DNA of 55,449 nucleotides from a virus, in IMG/VR virus record IMGVR_UViG_3300028417_000005, positions 1 to 55,449 of that record, one strand, 5' to 3'. This document shows positions 2,402 through 55,449 of the stretch, piece by piece. Every line of letters begins with the position of its first letter. Position 1 is the stretch's first letter. Below the pieces are notes generated by a model, which did no database searches, was not told where the DNA came from, and worked only from the letters and a program-made list of their open reading frames with translations. A program made the translations under genes and the position numbers.

Positions 2402-4432
2402 TTAAACTAACATCTCAAACTTGTATCCTAGATGATCATTAGAGATCAATCTAGCTTTTTGGTTCTCTAGCTTGAACTTTAGAACCAAACTTAATGGCAC
2501 ATATGCCAAAGAACCAATATAGACTACCGTGGTTCTCTCTTCTATAATATCTTTATAGATAGGCATAGAAGCTAATGCTTCTGATATGGCTATCATATCA
2601 CCTCTCTCTTCCATATCAGATTTATAGTTAACTTTTATCTCGTACTCTGGTATAGAGTTAACACCATCTCTAACAGAGATGAACTCACCATCCATTACGA
2701 TGAGTTTGAACCCACTTTCCTTGGTTATTATCTTATGTATGTCTTTAACATACATATCAACTACTATGTAGTCTTTTCCTTTGTATGCCTCCTTTAAATT
2801 ACCTACATAGTCATTTAGCACGAAGTCACTATCTGCTTTCTTCATAGACGCAATATCTATGAAATAGTACTTACCACCAATCTTGTATCCAACTCTCTCT
2901 CTGAATACAATTGGATTATCTAAATCCACTATCATTGACAATATGTCAATTTTGAATTCTATATACTTTTTTGTCAACGAAGTGTCATACTCCCACTCAT
3001 AATTATATTTGCAACCATCAAAGACATACTTTTGTATGCCATTAGGAGTTTTAACTAAAGCAATCTCCTCTCCAAATGTGATTGCTTTTACTTCCCAGTT
3101 CTCCTCAATAACCTTAGTCAATATATCTTCTGTAATTTCGTGATTTGCATCCCAAAAGCTACAGAACCCAAACTCATTGGTTCTTTCTAAGACAATCTCT
3201 GTTACTCTCTTGTGGTTCTCATCTATTAGTTTATTTATAGATGATACATCATTCTCTAGTAGTCGCAGATACGCTCTTATAGCGTGTATTTTCTTATACT
3301 CTTTACTATTGTTTATGGCAATGATTGCATCCTTAGAACCAGATGCAAACTTGTTATATTTAACAGCATCTTGCCATTGATGTGTAGCTCCTTTGTCCCA
3401 ACTATCTATAACCCTTAGGTTATTATCTATGACATATTGAACATAATGTTCAACCCTGTCATCATTGGAACCAATCAGATTAATGGTCTGCTCTTTTTCA
3501 GCAAACTCTTCTGCAAAGAAGTCTTCTACCTCGTCGCAGAAGATCCCTTCTAGGCTAGTAACTCTAGCCGTAAAGCCAGAGTTGTGTATGAACACTATAT
3601 GTTCATCGTCTATTAAACCTTTAAGCTCATTTAAATTGAGACTAGGATCCCACTTCTGTGGATCTCCCTTCTTTGCTACTACATTAATACAGTAGTTGTT
3701 TTGGATCTCATCGAACCAAACAGCATAATATATGTCTGGCGTATCTGTTGTGTTAATAGCCTCCCTCCAATTCCTCTTGAAAGATTTAAAGCATACCATT
3801 TCTGTTATGCCTCTATCTTTGTTATCAGAGATACACTCTCTGATAATATCTATATCTTTATACCTCTCACTTCTGTTGTGAGCCACAATAGGCTCTAATA
3901 GTGTTTCTATGTACCGTATGCTACCTAGTACACTTCTGTCCCTTAGCACTTCAATGACATCTTTTAAGACATCATCGAAATACCTCCCAGCAGTTTGTGA
4001 CTCTTGCACAAACTTAATCAACAGCTCTGACAGCTCTACTATCTTGGCTGTCATTTTCTCCTTTAACGCCTCTTTGTCCCCACCAACATCGTGGGTTCCT
4101 ACATAGCGAGCTATGTCGAATAGCTCATAGTGTAATGGTATCCCTTCCAAAGAGAAGACATACTCTGCTACTAGGTGGCAAGCACCTAGCAACTCCTTGT
4201 CTTGATGATGATCAAACATCATCCTACTTGGATCATAGACGCCTCCTACATCTACTATTATATCAACCCCAAATATGATCCCCTCATCTCTGGTTCTTAC
4301 TATCGTGTAGTCTTTAACTACACCTCCCATATCTAGAAGTGCTATTGCTAGCACCTCATCACAATGGTATCCACCACTGTGTGTTGCTACTGTTGTTTTT
4401 GTACTACTTGAGTTTAAATTTACTACTGACAT
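2402..4432 (-). CDS. MYG1-like (UPF0160, DHH-superfamily) protein with a long C-terminal extension
   Basis: About 676 residues from the ATG at 4432, chosen because AGGAGA lies 5 bases upstream; the longer frame to 4531 has no such site. Residues 14-80 carry the MYG1 signature: THSGGYHCDE, then VRTRDE, DVGGVYDP and the metal-binding DHHQ. A later 'FIHNSGFTA' block (about residues 300) also fits MYG1. Members are putative metal-dependent phosphoesterases or 3'-5' RNA exonucleases. Residues from about 340 to 676 form an extension I do not recognise. MYG1 proteins are usually about 300-380 residues, so this is a fusion or a phage-specific enlargement. It is first among the large leftward early genes and may act on host RNA or nucleotide pools. 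The family call is firm, the substrate unknown. Confidence 0.88.
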   Translation of the reverse strand: MSVVNLNSSSTKTTVATHSGGYHCDEVLAIALLDMGGVVKDYTIVRTRDEGIIFGVDIIVDVGGVYDPSRMMFDHHQDKELLGACHLVAEYVFSLEGIPLHYELFDIARYVGTHDVGGDKEALKEKMTAKIVELSELLIKFVQESQTAGRYFDDVLKDVIEVLRDRSVLGSIRYIETLLEPIVAHNRSERYKDIDIIRECISDNKDRGITEMVCFKSFKRNWREAINTTDTPDIYYAVWFDEIQNNYCINVVAKKGDPQKWDPSLNLNELKGLIDDEHIVFIHNSGFTARVTSLEGIFCDEVEDFFAEEFAEKEQTINLIGSNDDRVEHYVQYVIDNNLRVIDSWDKGATHQWQDAVKYNKFASGSKDAIIAINNSKEYKKIHAIRAYLRLLENDVSSINKLIDENHKRVTEIVLERTNEFGFCSFWDANHEITEDILTKVIEENWEVKAITFGEEIALVKTPNGIQKYVFDGCKYNYEWEYDTSLTKKYIEFKIDILSMIVDLDNPIVFRERVGYKIGGKYYFIDIASMKKADSDFVLNDYVGNLKEAYKGKDYIVVDMYVKDIHKIITKESGFKLIVMDGEFISVRDGVNSIPEYEIKVNYKSDMEERGDMIAISEALASMPIYKDIIEERTTVVYIGSLAYVPLSLVLKFKLENQKARLISNDHLGYKFEMLV

Positions 4433-4508
4433 AATTTCTCCTATGTCGTAAGATAAGTAATCATACTCATCTGGTTCTATATCCTGTCTATGCATATCAG
4501 GCGCAGCA

Positions 4509-4658
4509 TTACATACAAGGAGAACCACCATTGGTTCTAATAGTTATGTAGTTTAGTGTATATCCCTCTATATGCCTATCATATAGAGCTATACATATAT
4601 AAACACTACTAGTAATGCTTGTATATGTATAGGATGGAGCAAGTGTGGCACTAGCCAC
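4509..4658 (-). CDS. Possible 49-residue ORF with GTG start
   Basis: A near-ideal ribosome-binding site (AAAGGAGG) sits inside the last codons of the upstream 132-residue gene. The first start codon after it is GTG at 4658, overlapping the upstream stop by 8 bases and opening a 49-codon frame rich in Thr, Ser and Tyr. The placement suggests translational coupling. No ATG and no recognisable product, so it may only be a leader peptide or a chance frame. Confidence 0.35.
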   Translation of the reverse strand: MASATLAPSYTYTSITSSVYICIALYDRHIEGYTLNYITIRTNGGSPCM

Positions 4659-5437: not shown

Positions 5438-5509
5438 AGTCTATCTCCTTCCTAAGTCTCTCCTCAGTCCAGCCTGTGTGGTAGGTACAGGTGACCTGCG
5501 AACCGATAC

Positions 5510-6058
5510 AAGCAAGCGCGAAAGCATCCGCGAAAGCAACAAAGGCGAAGCCAAGCAAAGGAAGCCCCAAGAGCCCAGCAACAAAGCATTGAAGAAACAA
5601 ACGAGGCTACGCCTCGTTAATTTCCTTCAACGCATCCGAGACCTCCGAGCGCACAGAGCGCACGAATCGAACCGAGCCGACAACCCCGCCAACGACCGAA
5701 GCCGTGGCAGACGAATCCGAAGGACCAGCGAACAAGCCGCCGAACCAAACAACAAGATACCAGACAGCCGAGCAGACAAGCGCCAAAGGCACAACGAACA
5801 ACAATAAAAGAGCAACAAAGAAATCCTTCACAGGAGACCTCCCAAAAGAAACAAGGCGAAACAACAGCCAAGCGCGAAGACCCAAGCCAAGCCGAAGCAA
5901 GGCGACAACGAACACCAAAGGAGCGAAGGAACCAACGGGAAGAAGGAACCAACACACCAAGCACAGTAGCGGAAAATGCGAAGCAATTTCCGCAACGAGA
6001 AAAAACACAAGACAAGGGGAGGGGGAACCAAAAGACGGGGACAAAAAGACAGGCTAAT
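5510..6058. other. T-depleted, GC-rich non-coding segment
   Basis: From 5521 to 6060 I count 30 T in 540 bases (5.6%), against roughly a third elsewhere; 5841-5966 has none at all. GC rises to about 50-58%. Open frames on both strands here are side effects of missing T (no stop codons) and read as polar low-complexity or hydrophobic nonsense without ribosome-binding sites. The edges are sharp: an AT-rich iteron tract begins at 6061. It includes the direct repeat GCGAAAGCA near 5518 and 5530, and many AAGCC, GAAGC and GGAACCAAC words. Probably a replication, transcription-start or RNA element. Confidence 0.7.
5600..5618 (-). promoter_or_regulatory. Hairpin with 3-base loop; candidate virion-RNA-polymerase early promoter
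   Basis: AACGAGGC (5600-5607), loop TAC, GCCTCGTT (5611-5618): a perfect 8-bp stem with a trinucleotide loop. N4 virion RNA polymerase promoters are template-strand hairpins with 5-7-bp stems and a 3-base loop with a central purine near -11. Taking the plus strand as template, the central A is 5609 and +1 falls on a C at 5598, so RNA would start with G and run into the leftward early genes. Other reading: a bidirectional terminator, since T-rich bases follow on both sides. Confidence 0.45.
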
Positions 6059-6061
6059 ACC

Positions 6062-6135: not shown

Positions 6136-6261
6136 TTACACTCACACAACCCACACTATTGCTTATTTAGAACCACACATAGCTATGTTGATCTAGTTGT
6201 TTTGATTTGTTAATTGATTGTTTTGTTGATTATTTTGTTAAGAAGGTAGTAGTTTAAGATT

Positions 6262-7145
6262 CTTTTAATCACCATACTGGTACAATTCTAACTTGTACCA
6301 GCAACACAAACTGGTGATAGTGGCTTCAAGGTAAGTGTTTAATCTTATCTTGAAGCCTCTTGAATACTTAAACTTCTAGCGATATTATATCGTTTTTAGT
6401 TTAATTATTCAAGGGCAAGTAGATTTTATCTACTATTCACTATCAATGAATTGTGCACACGATTGTAGTAGCTGATTATACGAGTTCTAAACTGCTAACA
6501 CTTAGGTGTTATTATGAAGCTTACTATGAGTAAAGTGGAGTCCTTAAGTAGGTAGAAATACCGAAAGAGAGGTGGTTAATAGCCACTGGGTAGGCGATAC
6601 GATGTAAGCAGATATGTTTACATTAGTTACCGTCGTGTTGGTTGATTATAACTCGCTAGTTTGTGCTAGAAAAGCAGAACCAACGAAGGAATGAGAGTGC
6701 CATACATCAATCATAATATTTGATCTGTATAGGCTATGTGTCTCCGTACGACCGCATATAGTAATAGTTTAACTTAGTACTCTTGATCAGATATGATCCA
6801 ATCTTCTCCTATACTTTTTAAACCTACACTCTAATAAGGGTGAAGGTCTATCTGCTCTTTAGTAGTAAATAGATTAGAACCACAACCAACAGATATCAAG
6901 TAGATATATCTTTCATCTCTCCCTCGTAACCTACTCAGCTCCGTCAGGGGCTGAGTGCAACTTAAGCTAACACTAGTTAACCCCATACCACCCACCCACT
7001 CCGTGGGGGGTATGTTGTATCACTAGCTTTTACTTATTTTTACTTTTATCTAGTTTGTTTGGTTCAAGGGAGGAACCAAACAAAGGTGTTGTGTTCACTA
7101 GTGTGAGCTTAGGTGCAATTAGGGGTTGACACCCCTAATTGGGGT
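6262..7145 (+). ncRNA. Candidate large, highly structured non-coding RNA (about 880 nt)
   Basis: No gene fits this stretch but strong hairpins fill it. Examples: 7-bp stem 6268-6274/6312-6318 enclosing a 9-bp stem 6277-6285/6293-6301; 14-bp stem 6322-6335/6344-6357; 15 of 16 pairs 6359-6374/6398-6413 enclosing CGATA-TTA-TATCG; 6-bp stem 6419-6424/6428-6433; a GGTA-GAAA-TACC tetraloop near 6551; GTTGGTT/AACCAAC around 6637-6685; 10-bp stem 6933-6942/6947-6956; CATACC/GGTATG at 6984-7014; 12-bp perfect stem 7054-7065/7073-7084; 11-bp perfect stem 7116-7126/7131-7141. This density resembles the large ornate phage RNAs (GOLLD, ROOL), but I cannot match a consensus. The GNRA loop favours the plus strand. 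It ends about 50 bases before the late operon. Confidence 0.6.
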
Positions 7146-7195
7146 TCTTATTAAGTTTGTTTATGCTAAACTAATATATATCAAAAGGAGATATA

Positions 7196-44701: not shown

Positions 44702-46360
44702 TTAAAATGGTATATCATCATAATCAATATCTATGTCTATCGTCTCTTGTTTATATTCTATCTTATCAGATATTATATAAGGCGACATAGATCTAAGCCA
44801 AGAATCTTCTTGAGCTACATAATACAATGAATATAACTTTTTATTGTTAATAACACACTTCTTGGCAAGTGTCTTAAATGTTTTTATTATCCTACTCTCG
44901 TAGATAGGAAAATCATTTATGAATTCAATCCAAGCATCTACTATTTTAGTAATTTGACTCTTATTATATCTCACTTGGTTCTGTCTTTTGTTTATTTCAA
45001 ATACAACCTCCATAACAATATATAAATCTTTTGATGTTTCAAAATGATACTTCAGATCGTCCACAGATAGCTCTGGTATCATTTTGATGTTCTTCTCAAC
45101 CTCAGCTATTGCCTTAGAGACTTTGTCTCTTGTGATCTCGTGTAGACCACTTTCACTAGTTATCTTCTTAACTATACTAAGAGCTACTCTCTCCTTCTCT
45201 TTGGATAGCTTCTCCTTGTAGTCTTTTGAATATCTCTTAACTGGCATATATGGTTCATTATGATAACCGTGTGTCTCAAGAATCTTTGATACATCTAGTA
45301 CTTCAAAGTACTTTTTGCCTTTATGTGGTCTAGCACCACGACCTATAATCTGCATTATTAAAGACCTTACAGGTGATGGTCTTATTGGAACCACAAGCTC
45401 TATGTCTGACACATCAAAGCCTATTGATAGTTTATTCATACTAACTAAGCAATTACAAGATATTTCATCATCTGACAACAGAGATGTTTTAATACTGCTT
45501 CCATCTTTAAATAGCTTAAGCATCTCTTTACTTTTTTTACTATCTGATTTAGAGTGGTAGCTATATGCTTTATATCCATCCATAACTAATGCCTCAGCCA
45601 TCGCATCGCAATGCTCAATACTACTGCAGAACACAATTGTTTTTTTGCATTTGGCATTTAGTTCATTCATAGATGATATAGTTAGTGATATAATATTGTC
45701 TGTATTATATATTGATGATATGTCAACAGATGAATAGTCATTGTTATTTAATACTTTTAATTGTGTCAAATCTATATCATTAACAAAACTAGGAACATAA
45801 TATCTAGCCTTAACTAAAGCTCCTATCTCTTCTAAATATTTAATCTCTGAAGCTATAATGTAATCATCTACATCTGGGAATAGATATCCTTCTGAATCAT
45901 ATGGCGTAGCTGTAAACCTAATAATTGGCTTAGAACCAACAACACTCATTATAGAAGATATGGTACTGGTGTTGTAAAACTTATGACCTTCATCAATTAT
46001 AATGTAATCAACATCTCTCAATATACCTACAATATCTTTCTTATCTAGTCTTGCAAATATAGTTTGTATCATACCTATGGTGGTTCTTGCATCTATGTTA
46101 AATAGATCATCCATACCAGATTTAACTACAGATACATCAACTCCTAATGATATTGCTCTATCATATAGCTGTTCTATTAGATCAGATATACCAACCATAA
46201 CAATATGCTTTGATGTTTGTAATGTATTAACTAGTTTCATTATCATAAATGATTTACCACTAGATGTTGGTGATGATATCATTATGTTTTTATTGCCACT
46301 ATCTAATGAATAGTCTATTGATGATACTGTTGTATCTTGAAATGAATATATATTATCCAT
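44702..46360 (-). CDS. SF2 DNA/RNA helicase
   Basis: 552 residues from ATG 46360, chosen because GGGGA lies upstream and the start overlaps the last array unit by 8 bases. A longer frame to 46438 only reads into that unit. Motifs: SSPTSSGKS (29-37), DEGH (123-126), FTATP (149-153), later IVFCSS (motif IV), and QIIGRGARP (motif VI). The C-terminal 150 residues are helical. Probably unwinds DNA or branched intermediates in replication/recombination. Confidence 0.92.
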   Translation of the reverse strand: MDNIYSFQDTTVSSIDYSLDSGNKNIMISSPTSSGKSFMIMKLVNTLQTSKHIVMVGISDLIEQLYDRAISLGVDVSVVKSGMDDLFNIDARTTIGMIQTIFARLDKKDIVGILRDVDYIIIDEGHKFYNTSTISSIMSVVGSKPIIRFTATPYDSEGYLFPDVDDYIIASEIKYLEEIGALVKARYYVPSFVNDIDLTQLKVLNNNDYSSVDISSIYNTDNIISLTISSMNELNAKCKKTIVFCSSIEHCDAMAEALVMDGYKAYSYHSKSDSKKSKEMLKLFKDGSSIKTSLLSDDEISCNCLVSMNKLSIGFDVSDIELVVPIRPSPVRSLIMQIIGRGARPHKGKKYFEVLDVSKILETHGYHNEPYMPVKRYSKDYKEKLSKEKERVALSIVKKITSESGLHEITRDKVSKAIAEVEKNIKMIPELSVDDLKYHFETSKDLYIVMEVVFEINKRQNQVRYNKSQITKIVDAWIEFINDFPIYESRIIKTFKTLAKKCVINNKKLYSLYYVAQEDSWLRSMSPYIISDKIEYKQETIDIDIDYDDIPF

Positions 46361-46502
46361 TATTTTTTCCCCAAAAAGATTTTTCTGATAAGCCTTCAAG
46401 CATTGCAAATACAGTACTAGTAGTTGATTTGTGCTCATATATATGATTTATAAATACATCTTGCGAGCTAACAAGACAAATCTTACCTACATATTTAAAC
46501 AT
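46353..46502 (-). CDS. Array B unit 21 (49 residues), last unit before the helicase
   Basis: Starts ATGTTTAAA at 46502; ends KSFWGKNNG. Contains FINHIYEH. Its ATGGATAA end is the helicase start. The C-terminus has drifted from FW-x-x-Y-V to a Gly end, showing that the ribosome-binding role of this DNA outweighs the protein sequence here. Confidence 0.72.
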   Translation of the reverse strand: MFKYVGKICLVSSQDVFINHIYEHKSTTSTVFAMLEGLSEKSFWGKNNG

Positions 46503-46662
46503 CATATTCCTTCCAATATTTTATTTTATATAGATTACCACCAACAAGAGATAATCTAGATATACTGCCTAGCATAAAATAATCATATGATAATTTATTA
46601 GCAAATAAATGTTTTAATTCTTTTCTTTTATCAGGTATAAATTTTTCAATACTTTTAAACAT
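46495..46662 (-). CDS. Array B unit 20 (55 residues)
   Basis: First half nearly identical to unit 16 (IEKFIPDKRKELKHLF against IEKLIPDKRKELKHLF), second half different; ends YWKEYDV with Tyr-Trp replacing Phe-Trp. Overlaps unit 21 by 8 bases. A recent partial copy or exchange. Confidence 0.72.
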   Translation of the reverse strand: MFKSIEKFIPDKRKELKHLFANKLSYDYFMLGSISRLSLVGGNLYKIKYWKEYDV

Positions 46663-46801
46663 TATATTGGTTCCAAAAAGTTTTTTTTGATAAACACCCA
46701 TTTACTGGGCTAGTGTAAATAAATAGCTTGTAATCATATATATGATCTATTAGTGTACTATGCTTCCTAGAAACACAAATATAACTTACCATTTTAAACA
46801 T
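46655..46801 (-). CDS. Array B unit 19 (48 residues)
   Basis: MFKMV start, LIDHIYDY in the middle, TFWNQYNV end. The junction with unit 20 contains GGAACCAA, so the genome-wide word is part of its ribosome-binding region. Close to units 17, 18 and 21 in length and layout. Confidence 0.72.
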   Translation of the reverse strand: MFKMVSYICVSRKHSTLIDHIYDYKLFIYTSPVNGCLSKKTFWNQYNV

Positions 46802-46943
46802 TATATTTGCTCCAAAAAGTTCTTAATGATAAGCCTTCAGTCATTATGAATCTAGCATTAACAGTTTGTTGATGATCATATATATGATTGATTAGTCCGC
46901 TATGTTCTCTAAAAATACATATACAACCTAATAGTCTAAACAT
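46794..46943 (-). CDS. Array B unit 18 (49 residues)
   Basis: Start MFRLLG, LINHIYDH, ARFIM, end TFWSKYNV. Shares the INHxY-x-H pattern with units 17 and 21. Flanked by 8-base overlaps on both sides. Confidence 0.74.
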   Translation of the reverse strand: MFRLLGCICIFREHSGLINHIYDHQQTVNARFIMTEGLSLRTFWSKYNV

Positions 46944-47085
46944 TATATTTGTTCCAAAAAGATTTTAATGACGAGTTTCCACTTATTGTAAATCTAATAT
47001 TATTATGGAATACATGACTATACATATGATTTATAAATGTACTTCGTGTTTCAAGAAGATAAAGATTACCCATATATTTTAGCAT
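46936..47085 (-). CDS. Array B unit 17 (49 residues)
   Basis: Start MLKYMG, FINHMYSH, IRFTIS, end SFWNKYNV; a textbook family member. The start lies 20 bases inside the end of unit 16, whose C-terminus is therefore extended beyond the FW motif. Confidence 0.74.
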   Translation of the reverse strand: MLKYMGNLYLLETRSTFINHMYSHVFHNNIRFTISGNSSLKSFWNKYNV

Positions 47086-47245
47086 TATATTCTCCCCAAA
47101 AAGTTTTTTCATATAAGTTATCATCAAGAATAATTATTCTAGATATAGTATGTAACTTAGAATATTTATGTGATAAATTATTATTAAATAAATGTTTTAA
47201 TTCTTTTCTTTTATCAGGTATAAGTTTTTCAATATTTTTAAGCAT
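47066..47245 (-). CDS. Array B unit 16 (59 residues)
   Basis: Twin of unit 20 in its first half (IPDKRKELKHLF). Its FWGEY motif is not terminal: the frame lacks the usual stop and runs on through AKIYG, giving a 20-base overlap with unit 17. Confidence 0.72.
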   Translation of the reverse strand: MLKNIEKLIPDKRKELKHLFNNNLSHKYSKLHTISRIIILDDNLYEKTFWGEYNAKIYG

Positions 47246-47402
47246 TATCTTGACTCCAGAAAATTTTTTCATATAAATTACTATCTATTAAACCTAATCT
47301 ACTAATTGATGTATTGTATTTTGATCGAGTAGGAAGATAAGACATATAGTTATGTCGTATTAGATTATTTCTAGGTGAATATGTTTCTATTTCTTTAATC
47401 AT
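47238..47402 (-). CDS. Array B unit 15 (54 residues)
   Basis: Start ATGATTAAAG with only a weak upstream site. Middle LIRHNYMSY, then ISRLGLI, end IFWSQDNA. Its DSNLYEKIFW block matches the DDNLYEKTFW of unit 16, so the second halves of these neighbours are related. Confidence 0.7.
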   Translation of the reverse strand: MIKEIETYSPRNNLIRHNYMSYLPTRSKYNTSISRLGLIDSNLYEKIFWSQDNA

Positions 47403-47412
47403 AATATTAACT

Positions 47413-47601
47413 TTAAAAAGGATTTTCTGTATATGTAAACCCATCACTAAACCATTGGTTCCAAAATGTCTTTACATTTGTATTATTTAAAATCGTCAAC
47501 TTGTCAGTAGAGAAGATCTTAGGCATATTATTTTCAATTGCATATTTATGTGGTATCATAGATAAATTTTTATCTGAATTATATTTAGATACATTAAACA
47601 T
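47413..47601 (-). CDS. Array B unit 14 (62 residues)
   Basis: Start MFNVSKY as in unit 10; MIPHKYA, KLTIL, TFWNQW. The frame passes the normal stop and adds a dozen residues (ending TENPF), leaving a 10-base gap before unit 15. Looks like a unit with a mutated ending. Confidence 0.68.
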   Translation of the reverse strand: MFNVSKYNSDKNLSMIPHKYAIENNMPKIFSTDKLTILNNTNVKTFWNQWFSDGFTYTENPF

Positions 47602-47761
47602 ATCTCTTCCAAAAAGATTGATATAATAAATATTCATTCAAATTTAATCTTCCAGTTGATTTATCATTATTTGTCATAGTACCAAGACCCAACATATAAA
47701 TATGTTGGGTTAAGCCGTCATTATCTGTCCTCCAAAAATATGTTTTTATATATTTAATCAT
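47594..47761 (-). CDS. Array B unit 13 (55 residues)
   Basis: Start MIKYIKTYFWR, where an extra FW near the start suggests fusion with a former unit end. LTQHIYML, GRLNLN, end SFWKRYV. 8-base overlaps on both sides. Confidence 0.72.
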   Translation of the reverse strand: MIKYIKTYFWRTDNDGLTQHIYMLGLGTMTNNDKSTGRLNLNEYLLYQSFWKRYV

Positions 47762-47855
47762 AACATCTCCAAAAAATTTTTCTATATAATATATTATATC
47801 TAGAGTCATATTTATTGATACTTTTCATTTGATTTGAATTAACTTTTTTAAACAT
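47754..47855 (-). CDS. Array B unit 12 (33 residues, shortened)
   Basis: Begins MFKKV like unit 7 and ends KIFWRCYD. It lacks the His-Ile-Tyr part, so an internal deletion is likely. Junction overlaps are intact, which would keep ribosomes moving through the array. Confidence 0.62.
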   Translation of the reverse strand: MFKKVNSNQMKSINKYDSRYNILYRKIFWRCYD

Positions 47856-48042
47856 TATATTTATTCCATTTATCCATGCTTTGTTGTATTGATTTGCTAT
47901 TGCTCCAAAAACTATAATATGATAATTTATTTAACATATTAAATCTAAATACAACATAGCCATCAGAATTAAATCCTTTATATTTATGCTTTATAAACAA
48001 AGTAGAACCATTATGTGATATCTTATCTATATTTTTAATCAT
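47848..48042 (-). CDS. Array B unit 11 (64 residues)
   Basis: Has FIKHKY, VFRFNM and two ends in tandem: SFWSNS and then DKWNKYNV. This looks like loss of one stop between two units. Starts ATGATTAAAA, 5 bases after the stop of unit 10. Confidence 0.7.
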   Translation of the reverse strand: MIKNIDKISHNGSTLFIKHKYKGFNSDGYVVFRFNMLNKLSYYSFWSNSKSIQQSMDKWNKYNV

Positions 48043-48047
48043 TACAT

Positions 48048-48176
48048 TTACCTCATATATTGGTTCCAGAAAGCTTTTTTATTTGTATCATTTATAATTG
48101 TTAGTTTATTACCACTATGTTTATGAGATATCATATAAAAGCTTGTTGCTGCCGTATATTTAAATACATTAAACAT
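48048..48176 (-). CDS. Array B unit 10 (42 residues)
   Basis: Start MFNVFKY, ISHKHSG, KLTII, end AFWNQYMR. The usual Val-stop is replaced by Met-Arg-stop; the following ATG is 5 bases on. Confidence 0.68.
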   Translation of the reverse strand: MFNVFKYTAATSFYMISHKHSGNKLTIINDTNKKAFWNQYMR

Positions 48177-48303
48177 ATTCATTCCAAAACATTGCTCTAT
48201 AAAAATTGTCTTCAACATTAATTTTAAGATTTATAGAAACATATTCCCTAGATGCTTTAAATATACTTTTAAACATTATATTTATTCCTATATATTTTAG
48301 CAT
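48169..48303 (-). CDS. Array B unit 9 (44 residues, or 35 from ATG 48276)
   Basis: The first 9 codons (MLKYIGINI) look like a unit start joined straight to a unit end. The second ATG at 48276 has the regular GGAATAAATATA leader and begins MFKS. Ends MFWNEYV. A collapsed unit fused in front of a short one. Confidence 0.62.
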   Translation of the reverse strand: MLKYIGINIMFKSIFKASREYVSINLKINVEDNFYRAMFWNEYV

Positions 48304-48467
48304 TATCTGCCCCAGAAAGTTTTTATATATGAACATTTATTCGATAAGGCTAACCTATTATATGATTTATCACAATTTATAATAGTTGTATAAATCATAT
48401 AAGTATGTTGTATTAAATTACTATTTCTTGTATCTTGAATTGAGTATCTATTTATATTTTTAATCAT
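48303..48467 (-). CDS. Array B unit 8 (54 residues)
   Basis: Start MIKNINRYS, LIQHTYMI, NRLALS, end TFWGR followed at once by TAA. The next ATG shares one base with this stop (TAATG) instead of the 8-base overlap. Confidence 0.7.
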   Translation of the reverse strand: MIKNINRYSIQDTRNSNLIQHTYMIYTTIINCDKSYNRLALSNKCSYIKTFWGR

Positions 48468-48600
48468 ATTCACTCCAAAAAGATCTTTTATGTAATTTAT
48501 TATACATATATTCACATCTGTAAAAAACTAAAAAAATATTTTCTCCATAAATAGTTTTCATTCGATATCGAAAAGTATCTGAGCTAACTTTTTTAAACAT
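48460..48600 (-). CDS. Array B unit 7 (46 residues)
   Basis: Start MFKKVSS, YRMKTIYG, end SFWSEYD. The His-Ile-Tyr region is poorly kept. Overlaps units 6 and 8 by 8 bases each. Confidence 0.66.
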   Translation of the reverse strand: MFKKVSSDTFRYRMKTIYGENIFLVFYRCEYMYNKLHKRSFWSEYD

Positions 48601-48730
48601 CTCTATTCCAAAAAATTTTTCTGTGTAGTATATGTAATGATCTATCTTTAATATTACACTTCATTTTCTTTAATGATTTTTTATATCTATAATAAGAGAA
48701 CCCAACTCGCTTCTTAATCGCTTTATGCAT
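48593..48730 (-). CDS. Array B unit 6 (45 residues)
   Basis: Very basic (Lys/Arg about one third) and divergent, with LHILHRK and end IFWNRDV. It has its own strong GGAGGAG site 18 bases after the stop of unit 5. Possibly a nucleic-acid-binding variant or a foreign insert using array ends. Confidence 0.64.
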   Translation of the reverse strand: MHKAIKKRVGFSYYRYKKSLKKMKCNIKDRSLHILHRKIFWNRDV

Positions 48731-48748
48731 AACTCCTCCAATATATTT

Positions 48749-48892
48749 TTAAATATATCTATATTGGTTCCAAAATAATTTTTTAGGTCCATAGGCATTA
48801 AAAAACCTATAGTCATATGTTACATTTGCATATTTAAATCCATTATTATAATAATCATACAACTTGTTATAACCTTTATAAACGATAAACAT
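48749..48892 (-). CDS. Array B unit 5 (47 residues)
   Basis: Tyr/Asn-rich, YDYRFFN in the middle, LFWNQYRYI end. The start lies 17 bases inside unit 4. No clear His-Ile-Tyr. Confidence 0.64.
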   Translation of the reverse strand: MFIVYKGYNKLYDYYNNGFKYANVTYDYRFFNAYGPKKLFWNQYRYI

Positions 48893-49031
48893 ATTTATTC
48901 CAATATAATTTATCTATTAAAATAATCCTATTAAAGTTATTTGTAAAATCCAATCTAGAGCCATTATAGGTATATGAATATTTAAATGTTAATTTATTAG
49001 ATATTTTATTATTAATAAGTCTTTTATACAT
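48876..49031 (-). CDS. Array B unit 4 (51 residues)
   Basis: The first 22 residues equal those of unit 3 apart from position 2, from a 56-base perfect DNA repeat (48970-49025 and 49109-49164). The second half (SRLDFT, LYWNKYVYRL) differs. Tyr-Trp replaces Phe-Trp. Confidence 0.68.
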   Translation of the reverse strand: MYKRLINNKISNKLTFKYSYTYNGSRLDFTNNFNRIILIDKLYWNKYVYRL

Positions 49032-49170
49032 AACTATTCCAGCGATTCCAACTAAGATGATATCTATTAGATAAATAATATGAAATATTTAATCTACTAT
49101 CATTATAAGTATATGAATATTTAAATGTTAATTTATTAGATATTTTATTATTAATAAGTCTTTTGAACAT
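49024..49170 (-). CDS. Array B unit 3 (48 residues), a mosaic of units 2 and 4
   Basis: N-terminal half identical to unit 4, C-terminal half like unit 2 (SRLNISYYL...WNRWNSYV against YRLNISYHL...WDRWSKYV). Shows shuffling of halves between neighbours. 8-base overlap with unit 4. Confidence 0.7.
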   Translation of the reverse strand: MFKRLINNKISNKLTFKYSYTYNDSRLNISYYLSNRYHLSWNRWNSYV

Positions 49171-49273
49171 ATTTACTCCAACGATCCCAACGAAGATGAC
49201 CTCTATTGAATAAATGATATGAAATATTTAATCTATAAACACCATATTTATAATTATTAATTTTTTTATACAT
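49151..49273 (-). CDS. Array B unit 2 (40 residues)
   Basis: Start MYKKINN, YRLNIS, then RWDRWSKYV with Arg-Trp in place of Phe-Trp, running on four residues past the motif. Short N-terminal part without His-Ile-Tyr. Confidence 0.62.
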   Translation of the reverse strand: MYKKINNYKYGVYRLNISYHLFNRGHLRWDRWSKYVQKTY

Positions 49274-49275
49274 AT

Positions 49276-49338
49276 CTATCCAAATCTATTATTTCTACGA
49301 TAAAGGCTAGAAGAGTATAATTTTATATTTTTAAGCAT
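49276..49338 (-). CDS. Array B unit 1 (20 residues, truncated)
   Basis: Begins MLKNIK and stops at TAG after RFG. In another frame the end reads DLDRYV, so a one-base change has broken the normal ending. It follows the E2-like gene within a few bases. Probably a decayed unit. Confidence 0.42.
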   Translation of the reverse strand: MLKNIKLYSSSLYRRNNRFG

Positions 49339-49343
49339 AGCAT

Positions 49344-50288
49344 TTATTTAATGCTAGCTAATAATAATTTATGATATATGTTAACATACCCTCTAGCTAT
49401 CGATAGAGACATTTTACTATCCCAGATAGTAGAGTTCATAGGACTATTTAAATTGCCGTATGATAGCTCTGAGATACCTATAATAGAGTTTTTAATATGA
49501 GAACCAGTACAAACACTACTTCCACTACTAGATACATTTGGATGCATTACATTTGATAGCAACGGCAACACATTGCCATCTTTTTTTGAGAACCACCCGT
49601 ATGTAGGTATGATTATACTACTATCTATCATACTTAGTTCAATTGACCAATTGTTTATTGTAGTTAGGCTACTACCATCTTGCATCTTGCAATTAAACAA
49701 CATCTCTTCAGCAATAGTAATTAGTTTGACATTATCGTCAACTTTGATATGGTATTCATCAATGTGATCTACAATTTCTCTCATCTCTTCTGGAGCCATT
49801 AGATACAACTCTGGGTCCTTGCTTTCATCAACTGATAATGATATATTTTTGACTTCCAAGGTCATAATAGCTTCTTCAGCTGTCTTTGTATGTTTCTTTA
49901 TTGGCTTAGTTGTGCTCAGATAAACAGCAACCTTTATGTTTGTTAGAGTTTTGAATTTGTTCAGTTTAGAAATGACATCATAAGATAATAAATTGTGAGG
50001 CTTATTATCATTGTCTATGAATATTAATCCATAGAATAGATCATTTTCCATACTTAATCTTAGTAGCTCTATCATACCATCGAAGTTTTTAGCCTTAAAC
50101 ATAGATATGTTAAAGTTAGGCATTTCACCTTTTGCATTTAATGACATATCTTTATTATCTATTGTTGTTTCATATATTCCGTAATCATACGAAATATTAT
50201 TTGACTTCACTATACCCTTGTTTTCAACGACATAGTTTTTAAATTCAGATATTTCGTCTGACAACATTTTATTTAACACTAGACTCAT
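49344..50288 (-). CDS. E2-like (ubiquitin-conjugating fold) protein
   Basis: 314 residues; the second ATG (50288) is preferred, with GGAG 5 bases upstream. The C-terminal part has the E2 signature: His249-Pro250-Asn251, a SSSGS loop, and Cys260 as the catalytic position (HPNVSSSGSSVC). 'STIIIPTYGWF'-like strands precede it. The N-terminal 200 residues are extra and not recognised. This matches E2-like proteins of bacterial PRTRC-type systems (protein B). It would accept a ubiquitin-like modifier from the E1-like enzyme encoded two genes upstream. Confidence 0.78.
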   Translation of the reverse strand: MSLVLNKMLSDEISEFKNYVVENKGIVKSNNISYDYGIYETTIDNKDMSLNAKGEMPNFNISMFKAKNFDGMIELLRLSMENDLFYGLIFIDNDNKPHNLLSYDVISKLNKFKTLTNIKVAVYLSTTKPIKKHTKTAEEAIMTLEVKNISLSVDESKDPELYLMAPEEMREIVDHIDEYHIKVDDNVKLITIAEEMLFNCKMQDGSSLTTINNWSIELSMIDSSIIIPTYGWFSKKDGNVLPLLSNVMHPNVSSSGSSVCTGSHIKNSIIGISELSYGNLNSPMNSTIWDSKMSLSIARGYVNIYHKLLLASIK

Positions 50289-50310
50289 CATGTCTCCTTT
50301 TAATTTTGGT

Positions 50311-50337
50311 CTAGCATAGGGACGAACCCTATACTAG
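50311..50337 (-). promoter_or_regulatory. Hairpin between the 183-residue and E2-like genes
   Basis: CTAGcATAGGG (50311-50321) and CCCTATaCTAG (50327-50337) pair with one mismatch around ACGAA. The stop codon of the upstream gene is inside it. No T-run, so translation control or RNA processing is likelier than termination. Confidence 0.55.
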
Positions 50338-50880
50338 CTTTTCTTTGTTGGCATAAGCAACACTTAGTAGCTTGTAGTCTGTAGCTACAAGTTTAACCTT
50401 CTCTATCTCTAGATTAAAGATGTCATTCCCTACATTTATGTCTTTTAAAGCGTGTAGTTTCTTGCTGATAGCTTTTACACTATTGCTTACAATCTCTAAC
50501 TTATCTTCTACAGTTAGGAAGTCTGTATCAACTGTTGTATCCATTTCTGGTTCTATAGTTGAATACATCTCTCTGATGCTTCTAATAGCATCTACTGCCT
50601 CTTGTAGCTTGTCTCCATCAGATACTGTTTGATCTGTTAAAATCTCAGTTAAACTTCTGTTAGAAGCTTTTTCTTGATCTTCTGCTCCAGAACCGCCACC
50701 TGATGATTTAATCTCTTCTTTACTTGAGATCACTACATTCACAGTTTGTGTGAATAAGTCGTTTGTTGATTTTACTTCAACACCGTTCTTAGTAGGCGTA
50801 ACCTCAACCTCTGGTATAATACTATCTAATGTAGCATTGTCGATTCTGTTCTGAGCCTCAATGGCTTGTGCAATGTTCAT
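50329..50880 (-). CDS. Unknown protein of the ubiquitin-like module, 183 residues
   Basis: ATG 50880 after AAAAGGG. N-terminal beta-containing part (about 25-55), a glycine linker (SSGGGSGAE, about 59-67), and an acidic helical C-terminus (70-183). Lying between E1 and E2 genes, it may be the modifier, a precursor cut at the glycine linker by the JAB protease, or a scaffold (PRTRC protein C- or E-like). No Gly-Gly terminus. Nothing in the sequence decides. Confidence 0.75.
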   Translation of the reverse strand: MNIAQAIEAQNRIDNATLDSIIPEVEVTPTKNGVEVKSTNDLFTQTVNVVISSKEEIKSSGGGSGAEDQEKASNRSLTEILTDQTVSDGDKLQEAVDAIRSIREMYSTIEPEMDTTVDTDFLTVEDKLEIVSNSVKAISKKLHALKDINVGNDIFNLEIEKVKLVATDYKLLSVAYANKEKLV

Positions 50881-50892
50881 ACTATCCCTTTT

Positions 50893-50960
50893 AAAAAAAA
50901 TGTAAGCACTATGGCTTCATAAATAAAACTATTAAAGTTCTCTTTATGAAAGCATAGTGC
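50893..50960 (-). terminator. Terminator/attenuator between E1-like and 183-residue genes
   Basis: Arms 50906-50923 and 50943-50960 pair at 16 of 18 positions (GCACTATG and TTCATAAA blocks, two mismatches) around a 19-base loop, followed on the minus strand by eight T (complement of 50893-50900). It would lower expression of downstream genes relative to JAB and E1. Confidence 0.78.
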
Positions 50961-50981
50961 AATTGAAATACTAGGAAAGAC

Positions 50982-52073
50982 CTAATATTTCTTTAGCCAC
51001 TTGGCGACATCTGCCTTTTTGATCTTAAGAAGTTCTCTATTTTGCATTCTCTCGAATCCAATTATTGGATCTTCAATCCCCTCTATATTTACCTCTCCTT
51101 CATACTTTACTATATCAGCTACCTTTCGTCTGCCATCCTCAGATAGCAATGTTCTATATAGATTGCAGTATGTAAATATCCTTATCTCATCATAATCTGA
51201 TGATCTCATACTAGAACCCTTGCGTTCTTCCCAATGCTCCCATTCGGTCTTTAGCTTGTACATAGCATCAGAATAAGCACTATCTGTGCTGTCTAGCACT
51301 AAGTTAAACACTTTATGGAAGTCTCTTTTCCATTTATCTATCTCATTATACACTTTCCTAGCTTCGCTTTCACTATTAGGATCTAGGAAATCCATTAGCC
51401 ATTGACTAGCCATATGCGTAGCTGGAAGCATAAAGTTTAGATCTATCTTGCCATATGATTCATTGACTATTGATGTTTCTGCGACAGGTTTCTCACATAG
51501 CTTAATGATGAGCTCATCATCTTTGTGAGTTATCGTTATAAAAGGTATTGCACCACTATGCAAAACCTTTCTTGTTCTTATATCCATAGCTCCTATTGGC
51601 AGAGCCATAGTCTGCTTGTTGTGACATCCTTCTAAGAACAATGGTTCAATAAAGTCTGTTTCTAGCTTATGGTTGGTTCCCCATTGTCTAAGGGAATCTT
51701 GCTTTAGTGTTGATTTGAGATCACCAACCGATATTGGAATTCTTGGCATATTGCTAAGCTCCCACTTATCGTGTTCGAAGAAGTTGATATTATCTTTATC
51801 TTCTCCAAATGTATAATTTCTTAACATATAGAGCAAATTAGAACCAACACCACCAACACCAACTATCTCTGGAATTGTTGATGTATCTCCATTTTCTGTT
51901 TTATTGCTAATATGCAATTGTTTCATTTTTGGCTCTAAGAACTTAGCATATTTTTTATTGTATGCTGGATTTAAAATAGTATCAGAAGATCTATTTATAA
52001 CCATATCTAAACATTCGTTCGGATTTGTATATTTTTCTTCTAGCTTTATTTTTAGAAAATCTTTTATATCCAT
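50982..52073 (-). CDS. E1-like (ThiF/MoeB family) adenylyltransferase
   Basis: 363 residues. The nucleotide-binding loop GVGGVGSN (72-79) and the second motif FEHDKWELSNMPRI (Glu100, Asp102, Glu105, Asn108, Arg111) are the ThiF/E1 hallmarks. The remaining 200 residues are helical with no C-terminal ubiquitin-fold domain. Cysteines at 149, 192 and others could be the thioester site; I cannot choose. It would activate the C-terminus of a ubiquitin-like protein. Start ATG 52073 with AAGGA upstream lies 83 bases inside the JAB gene. Confidence 0.87.
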   Translation of the reverse strand: MDIKDFLKIKLEEKYTNPNECLDMVINRSSDTILNPAYNKKYAKFLEPKMKQLHISNKTENGDTSTIPEIVGVGGVGSNLLYMLRNYTFGEDKDNINFFEHDKWELSNMPRIPISVGDLKSTLKQDSLRQWGTNHKLETDFIEPLFLEGCHNKQTMALPIGAMDIRTRKVLHSGAIPFITITHKDDELIIKLCEKPVAETSIVNESYGKIDLNFMLPATHMASQWLMDFLDPNSESEARKVYNEIDKWKRDFHKVFNLVLDSTDSAYSDAMYKLKTEWEHWEERKGSSMRSSDYDEIRIFTYCNLYRTLLSEDGRRKVADIVKYEGEVNIEGIEDPIIGFERMQNRELLKIKKADVAKWLKKY

Positions 52074-52602
52074 AGTGTGTTTCCTTGTTTTTTGTTTTTA
52101 TGTCATCTTGTGTGACATTTATGATTGGCTTAAATGCACTTAGCTTAACAGGGGTAGCTATATCATATGTATACTTACCAGATACAACCTTTCTCCTTTT
52201 CGCATTATAGAATTCTCCATTGAACCCAAATAACATATTCGAACCAATGCCATCTCCATAATCTGGTTTCAGCAATCCATCTTCATCTGTATGTGAGAAC
52301 CCCATAACACCAATTGGATGTGTATGAAGATTATCACATAAACTCATAGATAAAACATTAAAGCCCATAGACTTTAGTTCATCTATCTTTTGTGATATAA
52401 GATTTCTATCAAGACCTTCTATCACAGACTTGACCATAGTAGTCATTACAGAACCAGATGCAGACTTCTGATTGTGCATATAATACAATATAGGTATTAT
52501 ATGCTTGCATTCTGTTTCAACTGAAACATACTCAATTCTAAGCTCACGATCTTGTATGAAAAGATCTATTATATCTTTTGGCGGTATCACTATTTTATAC
52601 AC
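51991..52602 (-). CDS. JAB/JAMM-domain isopeptidase
   Basis: 203 residues, GTG start at 52602 inside the last array A unit. The JAMM zinc motif is complete: His93-Thr-His95-Pro, seven residues, Ser103-x-x-Asp106. JAB proteases remove or mature ubiquitin-like proteins. The basic C-terminal tail (from about 165, KNKARRKIYK) is encoded in the part overlapping the E1-like gene. In PRTRC-type systems a JAB protein (protein A) sits with ThiF and E2 proteins, as here. Confidence 0.85.
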   Translation of the reverse strand: MYKIVIPPKDIIDLFIQDRELRIEYVSVETECKHIIPILYYMHNQKSASGSVMTTMVKSVIEGLDRNLISQKIDELKSMGFNVLSMSLCDNLHTHPIGVMGFSHTDEDGLLKPDYGDGIGSNMLFGFNGEFYNAKRRKVVSGKYTYDIATPVKLSAFKPIINVTQDDIKTKNKETHYGYKRFSKNKARRKIYKSERMFRYGYK

Positions 52603-52799
52603 ATTCGTATCCTTTTTTTTAGTTTAATATATTTGTCTTTTTGCACCTCAGTATATTTACTCCAGAACAATATATCATTAAGATTATTATCAATACTTAA
52701 TCTAATATCATCATTTGAATCATAATAAATATGAAATATATATAAACCACCACTATAATCATATTTAGAGTCATGTGTTTCTAAGTCATATCTAAACAT
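52590..52799 (-). CDS. Array A unit 9 (69 residues), with extended basic tail
   Basis: MFRYDLETHD start, FHIYYD, DIRLSIDNN, ILFWSKYT and then a Lys/Arg-rich tail of about 19 residues in place of Val-stop. The tail carries the AAAAAAAGG site of the JAB gene, so the end was reshaped to start a different gene. Its first residues repeat unit 7 (MFRYDL). Confidence 0.75.
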   Translation of the reverse strand: MFRYDLETHDSKYDYSGGLYIFHIYYDSNDDIRLSIDNNLNDILFWSKYTEVQKDKYIKLKKRIRMCIK

Positions 52800-52935
52800 A
52801 TTCTCTCCAAAATTGTATATTAGTAATACGCCAGCTCATTGCTAACCTATAGCAAATAAATTTATCACAATAAATATGATTTAAACAATTATAATCATAT
52901 TTATATCCATGTGTTTCTAATTCATAATTAAACAT
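52792..52935 (-). CDS. Array A unit 8 (47 residues)
   Basis: MFNYELETHG start (compare unit 9), CLNHIYCD, YRLAMS, QFWREYV end. 8-base overlaps at both ends. Confidence 0.75.
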   Translation of the reverse strand: MFNYELETHGYKYDYNCLNHIYCDKFICYRLAMSWRITNIQFWREYV

Positions 52936-53077
52936 ATTCATTCCAGAACCATATTTTATCGAGTGGATTTTTTATATTAAGTATATATTCAGTAGATGAA
53001 GTATTATATATATGACATAAATAGTGACACAAGTTAGTGCTGTTGGATCTCTGTCCATGTAAGTCATATCTAAACAT
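52928..53077 (-). CDS. Array A unit 7 (49 residues)
   Basis: MFRYDLHGQR start, LCHIYN, YILNI with Arg lost, LDKIWFWNEYV end. Extra Cys/His pairs (CHYLCH) in the middle could bind a metal. Confidence 0.74.
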   Translation of the reverse strand: MFRYDLHGQRSNSTNLCHYLCHIYNTSSTEYILNIKNPLDKIWFWNEYV

Positions 53078-53201
53078 ATCTACTCCAAAACAATAGATCA
53101 TCAAGGTCATTATCTATGCTTAACCTAATGTCATTAATTGGATTAAAATAAATATGAGATACATAAAGACTTACAAACGAAAAGATATCCATTTTAAACA
53201 T
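53070..53201 (-). CDS. Array A unit 6 (43 residues)
   Basis: MFKMDIFSF start, VSHIYFN, DIRLSIDNDLDD, LFWSRYV end. The DIRLSIDN block is shared with unit 9, so these are close relatives with different N-termini. Confidence 0.75.
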   Translation of the reverse strand: MFKMDIFSFVSLYVSHIYFNPINDIRLSIDNDLDDLLFWSRYV

Positions 53202-53313
53202 ATGCACTCCAGAAATTTTCAAAGCATAAAAAATTTAAACGCTCATTACATTTGAAATTATATTTATAATAAAGTTCATTACTTCTAGCTAAATATATAT
53301 ATGATTTAAACAT
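53194..53313 (-). CDS. Array A unit 5 (39 residues)
   Basis: Short unit, MFKSYIYL start, KYNFKCNERLNF, NFWSAYV end. His-Ile-Tyr is missing; Arg-Leu and the FW ending remain. Confidence 0.7.
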   Translation of the reverse strand: MFKSYIYLARSNELYYKYNFKCNERLNFLCFENFWSAYV

Positions 53314-53446
53314 ATTCGTTCCAAAAATCAAATTTATCTAAATATTTGCTAAGAGTAAATCTATTTTTTCTTGGGAAAAAAATAGTATGTTTATGTTTAA
53401 TGTTAGTGATACTGTCCAACCTACCATATATACTAATTTTAAACAT
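53306..53446 (-). CDS. Array A unit 4 (46 residues)
   Basis: MFKISIYGR start, IKHKHTIFF, NRFTLS, FDFWNEYV end. Lys replaces Ile in the His motif, as in several array B units. Confidence 0.73.
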   Translation of the reverse strand: MFKISIYGRLDSITNIKHKHTIFFPRKNRFTLSKYLDKFDFWNEYV

Positions 53447-53588
53447 ATGTCCTCCAAAATAATACCTTATCTAGCTTTCTGCCCATATTAAATTTAGATT
53501 CAATATCTAAACTACAATAAATATGATTTATGTAACCAGATTCTCTAATATTATTATATTTTTGTGCATATACATCATTTTTAAACAT
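53439..53588 (-). CDS. Array A unit 3 (49 residues)
   Basis: MFKNDVYAQ start, YINHIYCS, SKFNMG, LDKVLFWRTYV end. The junction GGAGGACATATG gives the next unit the strongest ribosome-binding site of this array. Confidence 0.75.
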   Translation of the reverse strand: MFKNDVYAQKYNNIRESGYINHIYCSLDIESKFNMGRKLDKVLFWRTYV

Positions 53589-53718
53589 ATTTATTCCAGA
53601 ATTGTATATTATCAAGTAAATTACTTATCCCAAATCTATATTCAGAAGTTGAAATATAATAAATATGATGTATAGAATTATTATTGGATTCATGTTTATT
53701 TAAACTATTTTTAAACAT
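53581..53718 (-). CDS. Array A unit 2 (45 residues)
   Basis: MFKNSLNK start, IHHIYYIS, YRFGIS, LLDNIQFWNKYV end. Its ending closely resembles the LFDNILFWSKYV remnant behind RNAP2. Confidence 0.75.
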   Translation of the reverse strand: MFKNSLNKHESNNNSIHHIYYISTSEYRFGISNLLDNIQFWNKYV

Positions 53719-53872
53719 ATTCACTCCAAAATATACAAGAATCTATTCCTGTTGTACTTATATTATTAAAATTTACACGCAATTTTCTGTCAATATTTAT
53801 ATTTAAATAAATATGATCTACCAAGTCATCAATATGAATTGATGTATATGAATTTAAATATTTTTTAAACAT
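53711..53872 (-). CDS. Array A unit 1 (53 residues)
   Basis: First unit after RNAP2. MFKKYLN start at 53872 behind TGGAG, VDHIYLN, RKLRVNF, CIFWSEYV end. Nearly all family features are present. Confidence 0.76.
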   Translation of the reverse strand: MFKKYLNSYTSIHIDDLVDHIYLNINIDRKLRVNFNNISTTGIDSCIFWSEYV

Positions 53873-53903: not shown

Positions 53904-55449
53904 TTAGTTCACCATATGTAATGATTTTCTAATCTCTTCATTTCTTAATGTATTTTCTTTTAATACATCAATTCTTTTACCTGATATCATAGATAAAACA
54001 TCTGATAGTAAATTGCTATCATTTATTTTACAAGCTACATCTTTTACATTAGATATTAACTTGTCACAATTATTTGGATGAACTCCATAATCATCGTGAT
54101 TTGTTGATAAATCAAACTGACTCATCATACAGACCTCTGAGAGCCAATAAGCCTCTACTGAGTGTATTACGCTTGATGCTAGTCCAGTTGATCGTCTAGT
54201 GGCTCCTACGACCTCTCTATAGTGCGTTAGGGAACCAAACGCTTCTGTGTCTATAGTAACTTCTTCTGTTATCTTACTTGGTCTTATACACTTCACTCCG
54301 TTCGGCAGCGCCCAAGTGTGATATCTCTTTTTGTCAGAGTATAATGATCTTATATCATTCATACCCTCTCCTACAGATTTGGATAAGTTCAGTACTGTAT
54401 CAAATGCGTATTCAGCTATCTCATCTGAATAGTCATTTTTTAATTCATCCATTAATATATTTTGTATTAGCTTAATGCCAGCACAATATGATATTGGTGA
54501 GAAGATAGATTTAACTACATCTCTTGTGAATGTATCAATATTAAACTTACTATTGATATTGTCACTAATAATCTGTTGTATATTTTCTATCTTATTCCCA
54601 CTAGCTAAATTAACTAGTTTTGCTGTTTCTTTACAACTATATAGTAGTGCATATATTTGAAATGCACTAGCACTATGATCTAAGTGCATAATCACACCTG
54701 TAGGCTTACCATCCATATGATCTCTTAGAGCCAATAGATAGTACTCCATAAATAATGGATCCTTAGCTTTGGATATCCATCTCTTGTGGTTCTTAATCAA
54801 CGAATGTTTGTTTCTTGAGAACCACATTGATCTCTGTTGGAAGGTCTTCTTATCTAAGCCATATACTCCAGCTATAGCTACTCCTAGCCAATGTAGTCCT
54901 CTCTCTGTTAACATCTGCTCATTAGCAAACTTGATTAGGACTTTATCTGATGTTGAACCTTGTGGGTTTAATTGGTATGCTGTTCTATACATCCTACCAT
55001 TTCTATCCCTCTTAATTTGAAAGTAAAACTTGTTTCCTTGTTTTAGCATTTCATCTGCACATCTCAATGTGCTCTTTAGCTTACAGTACCCAGTTGATTT
55101 ATCTGTTGGATATGATACTTTATCTAGCATCCTATCCTCTAGCTGATAAGCTACCTTCTGCAACTTATTTACAGATGCATAGTATTCAAGATCTATGCCT
55201 TCATTTAGTCTTTGGTTCCCACTTATGTGAGATTGGTTCATATAAGATTTGAACCCACCAAAGTTAGTGTGTTTCCATTCAGTAGCTTCTACAGCTTCTG
55301 GATATGGATGCTCTATACCTTCTATAGATAATATAGCATCTTCATCTAATTGCTTAGATAGGCTATTGTATATCATAAAGTACTGTTTCGTGTTGTTCTT
55401 TGGTACTAAAATATTAGTTTTAAGTACATCATTACCAGCCATATAGTCA
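53904..55449 (-). CDS. RNA polymerase 2 (T7/N4 single-subunit family), main part
   Basis: Continues from the part at 386-1; whole protein about 595 residues. Numbered from that start: xxGR motif DRNGR (229-233), motif A HLDHSASA (Asp338), motif B R390-DVV-K394 with Tyr402 eight residues on, motif C NHDDYG (His532-Asp533). Every catalytic residue of the family is present. The stretch between motifs A and B is shorter than in T7 RNA polymerase and the N-terminal promoter-recognition domain is small, as in N4 RNAP2, which works with RNAP1. It should transcribe middle genes. Array A follows 31 bases after its stop. Confidence 0.92.
   Translation of the reverse strand, partial: DYMAGNDVLKTNILVPKNNTKQYFMIYNSLSKQLDEDAILSIEGIEHPYPEAVEATEWKHTNFGGFKSYMNQSHISGNQRLNEGIDLEYYASVNKLQKVAYQLEDRMLDKVSYPTDKSTGYCKLKSTLRCADEMLKQGNKFYFQIKRDRNGRMYRTAYQLNPQGSTSDKVLIKFANEQMLTERGLHWLGVAIAGVYGLDKKTFQQRSMWFSRNKHSLIKNHKRWISKAKDPLFMEYYLLALRDHMDGKPTGVIMHLDHSASAFQIYALLYSCKETAKLVNLASGNKIENIQQIISDNINSKFNIDTFTRDVVKSIFSPISYCAGIKLIQNILMDELKNDYSDEIAEYAFDTVLNLSKSVGEGMNDIRSLYSDKKRYHTWALPNGVKCIRPSKITEEVTIDTEAFGSLTHYREVVGATRRSTGLASSVIHSVEAYWLSEVCMMSQFDLSTNHDDYGVHPNNCDKLISNVKDVACKINDSNLLSDVLSMISGKRIDVLKENTLRNEEIRKSLHMVN
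55306..55449. repeat. Terminal direct repeat, right copy
   Basis: Same 144 bases as 1-144. The last 126 bases (55324-55449) are identical. The single mismatch at 55323 changes the third base of Ile123 of RNAP2 (ATA here, ATC in the left copy), so it is silent. Confidence 0.93.

Follow-up and report, generated by a model that had tools for sequence, protein, structure and literature searches.

Between the RNA polymerase and DNA helicase genes of a phage lie two runs of very small genes, and the locus raises the question of what these genes are, how they became so numerous, and why the end of one so often contains the start of the next. The window analyzed is the whole virus record IMGVR_UViG_3300028417_000005 (55,449 bases). 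Both arrays lie on its minus strand, flanked by genes for a T7/N4-type RNA polymerase and a DNA helicase, with four more genes separating one array from the other. The features discussed below are listed from high to low coordinates.

53904..55442, minus strand: T7/N4-type RNA polymerase gene, upstream of array A and reaching the contig end.
53865..53900, minus strand: bare unit tail reading FDNILFWSKYV and stop, between the RNA polymerase stop and unit A1; gives the A1 ribosome site and ATG.
52590..53872, minus strand: array A, nine intact small genes of 39-69 aa, with an 8-nt overlap at 8 of 8 junctions.
53711..53731, minus strand: typical junction TTTTGGAGTGAATATGTTTAA, in which FW-x-x-Y-V-stop of one unit is also the Shine-Dalgarno element and ATG of the next.
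52590..52799, minus strand: unit A9, a mosaic with a C-terminal extension up to the JAB-like gene.
49344..52602, minus strand: four genes between the arrays, namely JAB-like, ThiF/E1-like, unknown and possible E2-like (weak assignments, motifs read by eye).
49276..49338, minus strand: truncated first unit of array B, 20 codons reading MLKNIKLYSSSLYRRNNRFG and stop, with the usual tail DLDRYV and stop surviving in another frame.
46353..49273, minus strand: array B, 20 intact small genes of 33-64 aa, with an 8-nt overlap at 12 of 19 junctions.
49024..49170, minus strand: unit B2, with an N-terminal half nearly identical to B3 and a C-terminal half like B1.
46353..46662, minus strand: units B19-B20, a two-unit block 73% identical over 300 nt to units B15-B16 (47245-46936).
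44702..46360, minus strand: DNA helicase gene, likely ATG at 46360, with the same 8-nt overlap with the last unit of array B (ATGGATAA).

By its proteins, the uncultured phage is a divergent member of the Schitoviridae (N4-like phages). A 3117-aa protein corresponds to the giant virion RNA polymerase of this family (phrog_2206, E = 3e-56). The portal is of the N4 type (phrog_1216, E = 8e-143; 36-39% identity to the portals of N4-like phages), as is the major head protein (phrog_1357, E = 6e-103), and the primase and RNA polymerase also match N4-like or related phage families. Because the best 80 N4-like loci in an alignment of IMG/VR portals all share at most 40% identity with the portal of this phage, it appears to form an isolated branch without a close relative. 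Complete Schitoviridae genomes measure about 60-80 kb and carry terminal repeats. Since the record has only 55,449 bases and the RNA polymerase gene runs to the contig end, the record is probably incomplete. Three regions outside the arrays were also recorded. At 5480-6060, the plus strand of a stretch of about 580 bases is markedly T-poor, with a G+C content above that of the rest of the record and no convincing gene. The interval 6200-7180, directly before the late gene block, is about 1 kb of sequence that appears to be non-coding and may be a structured RNA, with no Rfam match at gathering thresholds. At 2402-4531, a 709-aa protein resembles MYG1 exonuclease over 66 residues only (PF03690, E = 1e-25), which is unexpected in a phage.

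The genes at 49344-52602, between the arrays, may constitute a prokaryotic ubiquitin-type module, every assignment being weak. One of them carries a JAB-like motif (LHTHP...SHTDEDG), a second encodes a ThiF/E1-like protein (Pfam ThiF at 1.3e-3, below the cut-off, with weak UBA5 and PADLOC E1-E2 matches), and a further protein contains an E2-like stretch (HPNV...VCTGS) that was read by eye.

Every unit and junction of the arrays was read directly. The first-pass annotation had placed 30 units in two arrays at 46353-53872; their places hold, but the count becomes 29 intact units, nine in array A and 20 in array B, the thirtieth being the 20-codon truncated unit at 49338-49276. For unit B8, the likely start at 48303 was taken in place of the internal ATG at 48276. 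The paralogues are about 20-45% identical, several are truncated or extended, and their pI values range from 4.4 to 10.7.

The junctions between these units are strikingly regular. Exactly 8 nt are shared at 20 of the 27 junctions between intact units, which preserves the 20 overlaps initially counted and corrects their denominator from 28. Three other junctions overlap by 20, 20 and 17 nt in the same phase as the 8-nt ones, as expected if the usual stop had been lost, and of the remaining four, one is a 1-nt overlap and three are gaps of 18, 5 and 10 nt (with the B8 start at 48303). The helicase ATG at 46360 adds one further 8-nt overlap, with the last unit of array B. At the 8-nt overlaps (20 of 27), GGA or GGAG precedes the ATG, a layout typical of operon coupling. 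Allowing up to three mismatches, the junction motif occurs 15 times in the 55,449-base window, always within or at the edge of the arrays, versus 0.03 occurrences expected. None of the other listed gene pairs overlaps by 8 nt, their overlaps being 4, 10, 11, 17, 26 or 83 nt by ORF coordinates. In agreement with the earlier reading of the junction DNA, the same bases thus serve as a protein end and as the start signal of the next gene. Scans for sigma-70 promoters and terminators gave chance-level results only.

The units are very probably proteins, as the first-pass annotation had held. Internal stops are absent from all 29, for which log10 P is about -20 in array A and about -46 in array B under a base-composition model that ignores the kinship of the units. 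When eight close unit pairs were pooled, after exclusion of junction codons and with a correction for composition, dN/dS was 0.34 in the true frame (2dlnL 22.6 versus a value of 1), with no stops in 299 codon pairs. This estimate is biased downward, since protein similarity guided both the choice and the alignment of the pairs, and since their divergence approaches saturation. In contrast, the same alignments read in the two shifted frames contain 37 and 81 stop-containing codon pairs and give dN/dS above 1. By this codon-level measure, the unit core is under purifying selection. The proposed homology across the two arrays is borne out by reciprocal profile detection: the array A profile finds array B units (best 2e-5), the array B profile finds array A units (best 5e-7), and these cross-array matches rank ahead of every unrelated frame in the window.

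The shared protein plan requires correction. It had been described as an MFK start, HIY, R-L and an FWxxYV end; the internal HIY and R-L are indeed conserved, but the ends do not stand as independent evidence. A single DNA element comprising the ribosome site, start and stop largely accounts for both the N-terminal MFK and the C-terminal FWxxYV, each being one reading of it. With ATGNNTAA, residue 3 can only be Lys or Asn, and the Shine-Dalgarno element with its AT-rich spacer translates as FWxxY, so that the junction DNA largely dictates the shared ends. A chance profile match to a genome from the Sulfurovum phylum makes the same point: the matching sequence is an ordinary leader containing TTTTGGAGGAATTACAATG, which reads FWRNYN and has stop codons upstream, and the ends alone would therefore not suffice to establish a family. 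Protein evidence that does not depend on the junction comes instead from the internal core, the choice of Phe codon, the retained F-W and the dN/dS below 1. The core common to the paralogues is I-x-H-I-Y, R-L, L and F-W, with enriched internal columns for H (19/28), Y (26/28), R (18/29) and L (19/29), the binomial figures for which ignore kinship. Before Trp, Phe is encoded by TTT 18 times and by TTC seven times, and TTA or TTG never occurs there, while A makes up one third of third codon positions. Furthermore, F-W is kept in units that do not lend it to a following start (A9, B4, B7, B9, B10 and B13).

As read from similarities among units, the picture is one of arrays that grew by unequal recombination in register, not by cut-and-paste at junctions. 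Over the first 20 codons, B2 and B3 share 93-100% identity; beyond these they diverge, and the second half of B2 resembles B1. Unit B2 is the trace of a 139-nt tandem duplication with breakpoints in mid-unit. Unit A9 is a mosaic whose N-terminal part is like A8 and whose remainder is like A6 (best breakpoint, Fisher P of 0.009 and 9e-6, uncorrected for breakpoint choice), and B15 and B19 share a near-identical N-terminal part. Within array B, similarity is somewhat higher between neighbors than between distant units; a block-like order of similar neighbors across that array is not significant in an overall test (P = 0.10). Together, the 29 homologous tandem units and the signs of unequal recombination fit a gene accordion. 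The first-pass annotation had described a cassette that can be added, lost or shuffled. Duplication and recombination of units agree with that description, but all clear breakpoints fall inside units and none at junctions.

Relatives of the arrays were sought at several levels. A DNA search of the array region in phages gave no relative, and neither the portal nor the RNA polymerase, used as single-protein probes, led to a close one. The junction motif alone matched 68 IMG/VR contigs, once each, none of them profile-supported, and double-junction patterns in IMG/VR and in genomes gave only chance matches, again without profile support; one such match, in Sulfurovum, proved to be a WD40-type repeat protein and was rejected. 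Alignments of unit sub-groups against IMG/VR found no homologue, and tblastn of one unit in phages gave nothing credible. The search of phage genomes with a unit profile that the first-pass annotation had proposed was run on 47 N4-like records and returned no homologue. A scan independent of the unit sequences, which recovers both arrays in this phage, was applied to regions that make up most of 11 related N4-like records and detected no small paralogues grouped in tandem. Absence from the N4-like records and IMG/VR is not proof, because some records are fragments and short degenerate patterns miss distant relatives. About 725 sampled genomes from three bacterial groups, which may not include the host's, contained no homologue, an empty result that shows little without a positive control; a single unit-profile match there was discarded as chance, being a leader region with internal stops. 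No credible match was found for any of the 29 units in Pfam or PHROGs, for the unit profile in the PDB or for three units in PADLOC, and in these resources the units match no known anti-defense or defense family. The arrays have no Rfam match. AlphaFold2 prediction of two single units, an approach also proposed at first pass, yielded no confident fold (pLDDT of about 56). Literature searches turned up no description of such an array, and the original statement that no described phage family is known to have this design is upheld across families, IMG/VR, N4-like records and publications. The array is real, unusual and apparently undescribed, and the family is best read from these comparisons as lineage-specific.

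Taken together, these results suggest, with a probability of roughly one half, that the arrays form a family of very small, translationally coupled early or middle phage effectors, which is specific to this lineage and was expanded by recombination. Each unit would be a separate cistron whose last codons (TTYTGGAnnnnATATG or TTYTGGAnnnnATATAATG) hold the Shine-Dalgarno element and start codon of the next. With the stop lying 8 bases into the next gene, a ribosome ending one unit would find the next ATG within 8 bases and a ribosome site in the codons it had just read, and could reinitiate; termination and reinitiation would thus proceed down the operon, and in array B the chain would finally reach the helicase gene. 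We infer this coupling from the layout, and the time of expression is likewise a deduction. Because every unit carries a start and a stop of its own, whose relative phase does not change, unequal in-register recombination would keep the chain translatable. Such a layout may have let the family grow and recombine while the paralogues diverged and the internal core was kept. By analogy with viral families that have expanded elsewhere, diversified host-directed effectors, acting in takeover or counter-defense, would be the most likely role. The anti-defense, host-takeover or modifier roles named at first pass would each be possible. A bolder proposal, held only tentatively, is that the arrays are a gene-diversification device of a new kind: a modular array in which the C-terminal codons of one member are the start signal of the next, and in which members are added, removed and re-mixed by in-register recombination while translation persists, so that a large, fast-evolving repertoire of host-directed mini-proteins results. 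There is a fair chance that this self-propagating junction design merits a class of its own.

The best-surviving alternative, though an improbable one, is that the units build one functional assembly (a hetero-oligomer, a filament, or subunits for one target) and that their diversity reflects subunit specialization and not an arms race. A shared core with variable loops would suit such an assembly, and a strict operon of overlapping cistrons would favor balanced amounts; the truncated and extended units, the wide pI range and the lack of a predicted structural fold argue against it. Less probable again is a main role as translational relays, in which short leader cistrons with weakly constrained peptides would set or delay the expression of two genes, the JAB-like one for array A and the helicase for array B. 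The last junction of array B does start the helicase through the same 8-nt overlap, and the terminal motifs are largely dictated by junction DNA, but residues far from the junctions are conserved with dN/dS below 1, 29 units far exceed the need of a relay, and array A ends in an extended unit without an 8-nt junction. Non-coding repeats in DNA or RNA, serving as recombination sites, promoters or structured RNA and with incidental open frames, would fit with conservation being highest in the 21-nt junction, whose length is about that of a phage promoter, but this reading is very hard to reconcile with 29 stop-free units, frame-specific dN/dS, protein-level conservation of the Phe codon, the lack of an Rfam match and the absence of the junction motif from the rest of the genome. 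Equally improbable is programmed +1 frameshifting at GTT-TAA-A into a polyprotein, for although all 8-, 17- and 20-nt overlaps share the +1 phase and the stop codon follows a Shine-Dalgarno-like element, the Shine-Dalgarno spacing fits initiation, an ATG is present at each junction, gapped junctions break the chain, and a Val tRNA in the P site would be a poor match for UUU once it had slipped.

The reading as coupled effectors also sets the arrays beside known systems. Translationally coupled phage operons usually have 1- or 4-nt stop/start overlaps between unrelated genes. As in those operons, the stop here overlaps the next start and the ribosome site lies inside the upstream gene; unlike them, one 8-nt junction recurs 20 times between paralogues, inside the C-terminal motif of the family itself. 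Viral multigene families include the gene accordions of poxviruses and the MGFs of African swine fever virus. The position of the arrays in an N4-like genome, next to the genes for RNA polymerase and helicase, recalls the small early and middle gene regions of Schitoviridae, whereas the Schitoviridae records tested have no unit homologue (47 records) and no tandem array of small paralogues (11 records). Amplification of counter-defense genes by recombination has been described in phages for T4 tifA against ToxIN (PMC9391042), and SegB-driven gene amplification for T6 (PMC13096335). Like these amplifications, the poxvirus accordions and the African swine fever virus families, the arrays consist of copies that arose in tandem by recombination within a viral genome, with a plausible use in an arms race. 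In contrast to them, the arrays have very small copies that have diverged strongly, and the 8-nt overlap joining one copy to the next contains the start signal of the latter.

The role of many tiny phage genes is unknown, and the origin of such sets is hard to see because their members diverge beyond recognition. Here, 29 members have been caught in one genome, in a layout that would keep each new copy translatable. The arrays are also a natural example of one DNA element that is at once a protein end, a ribosome site, a start and a stop, and the ordinary Shine-Dalgarno leader that reads FWRNYN is a warning for families defined by such a C-terminal motif. For the question of whether phages maintain expandable effector arrays, this phage provides a clear test case.
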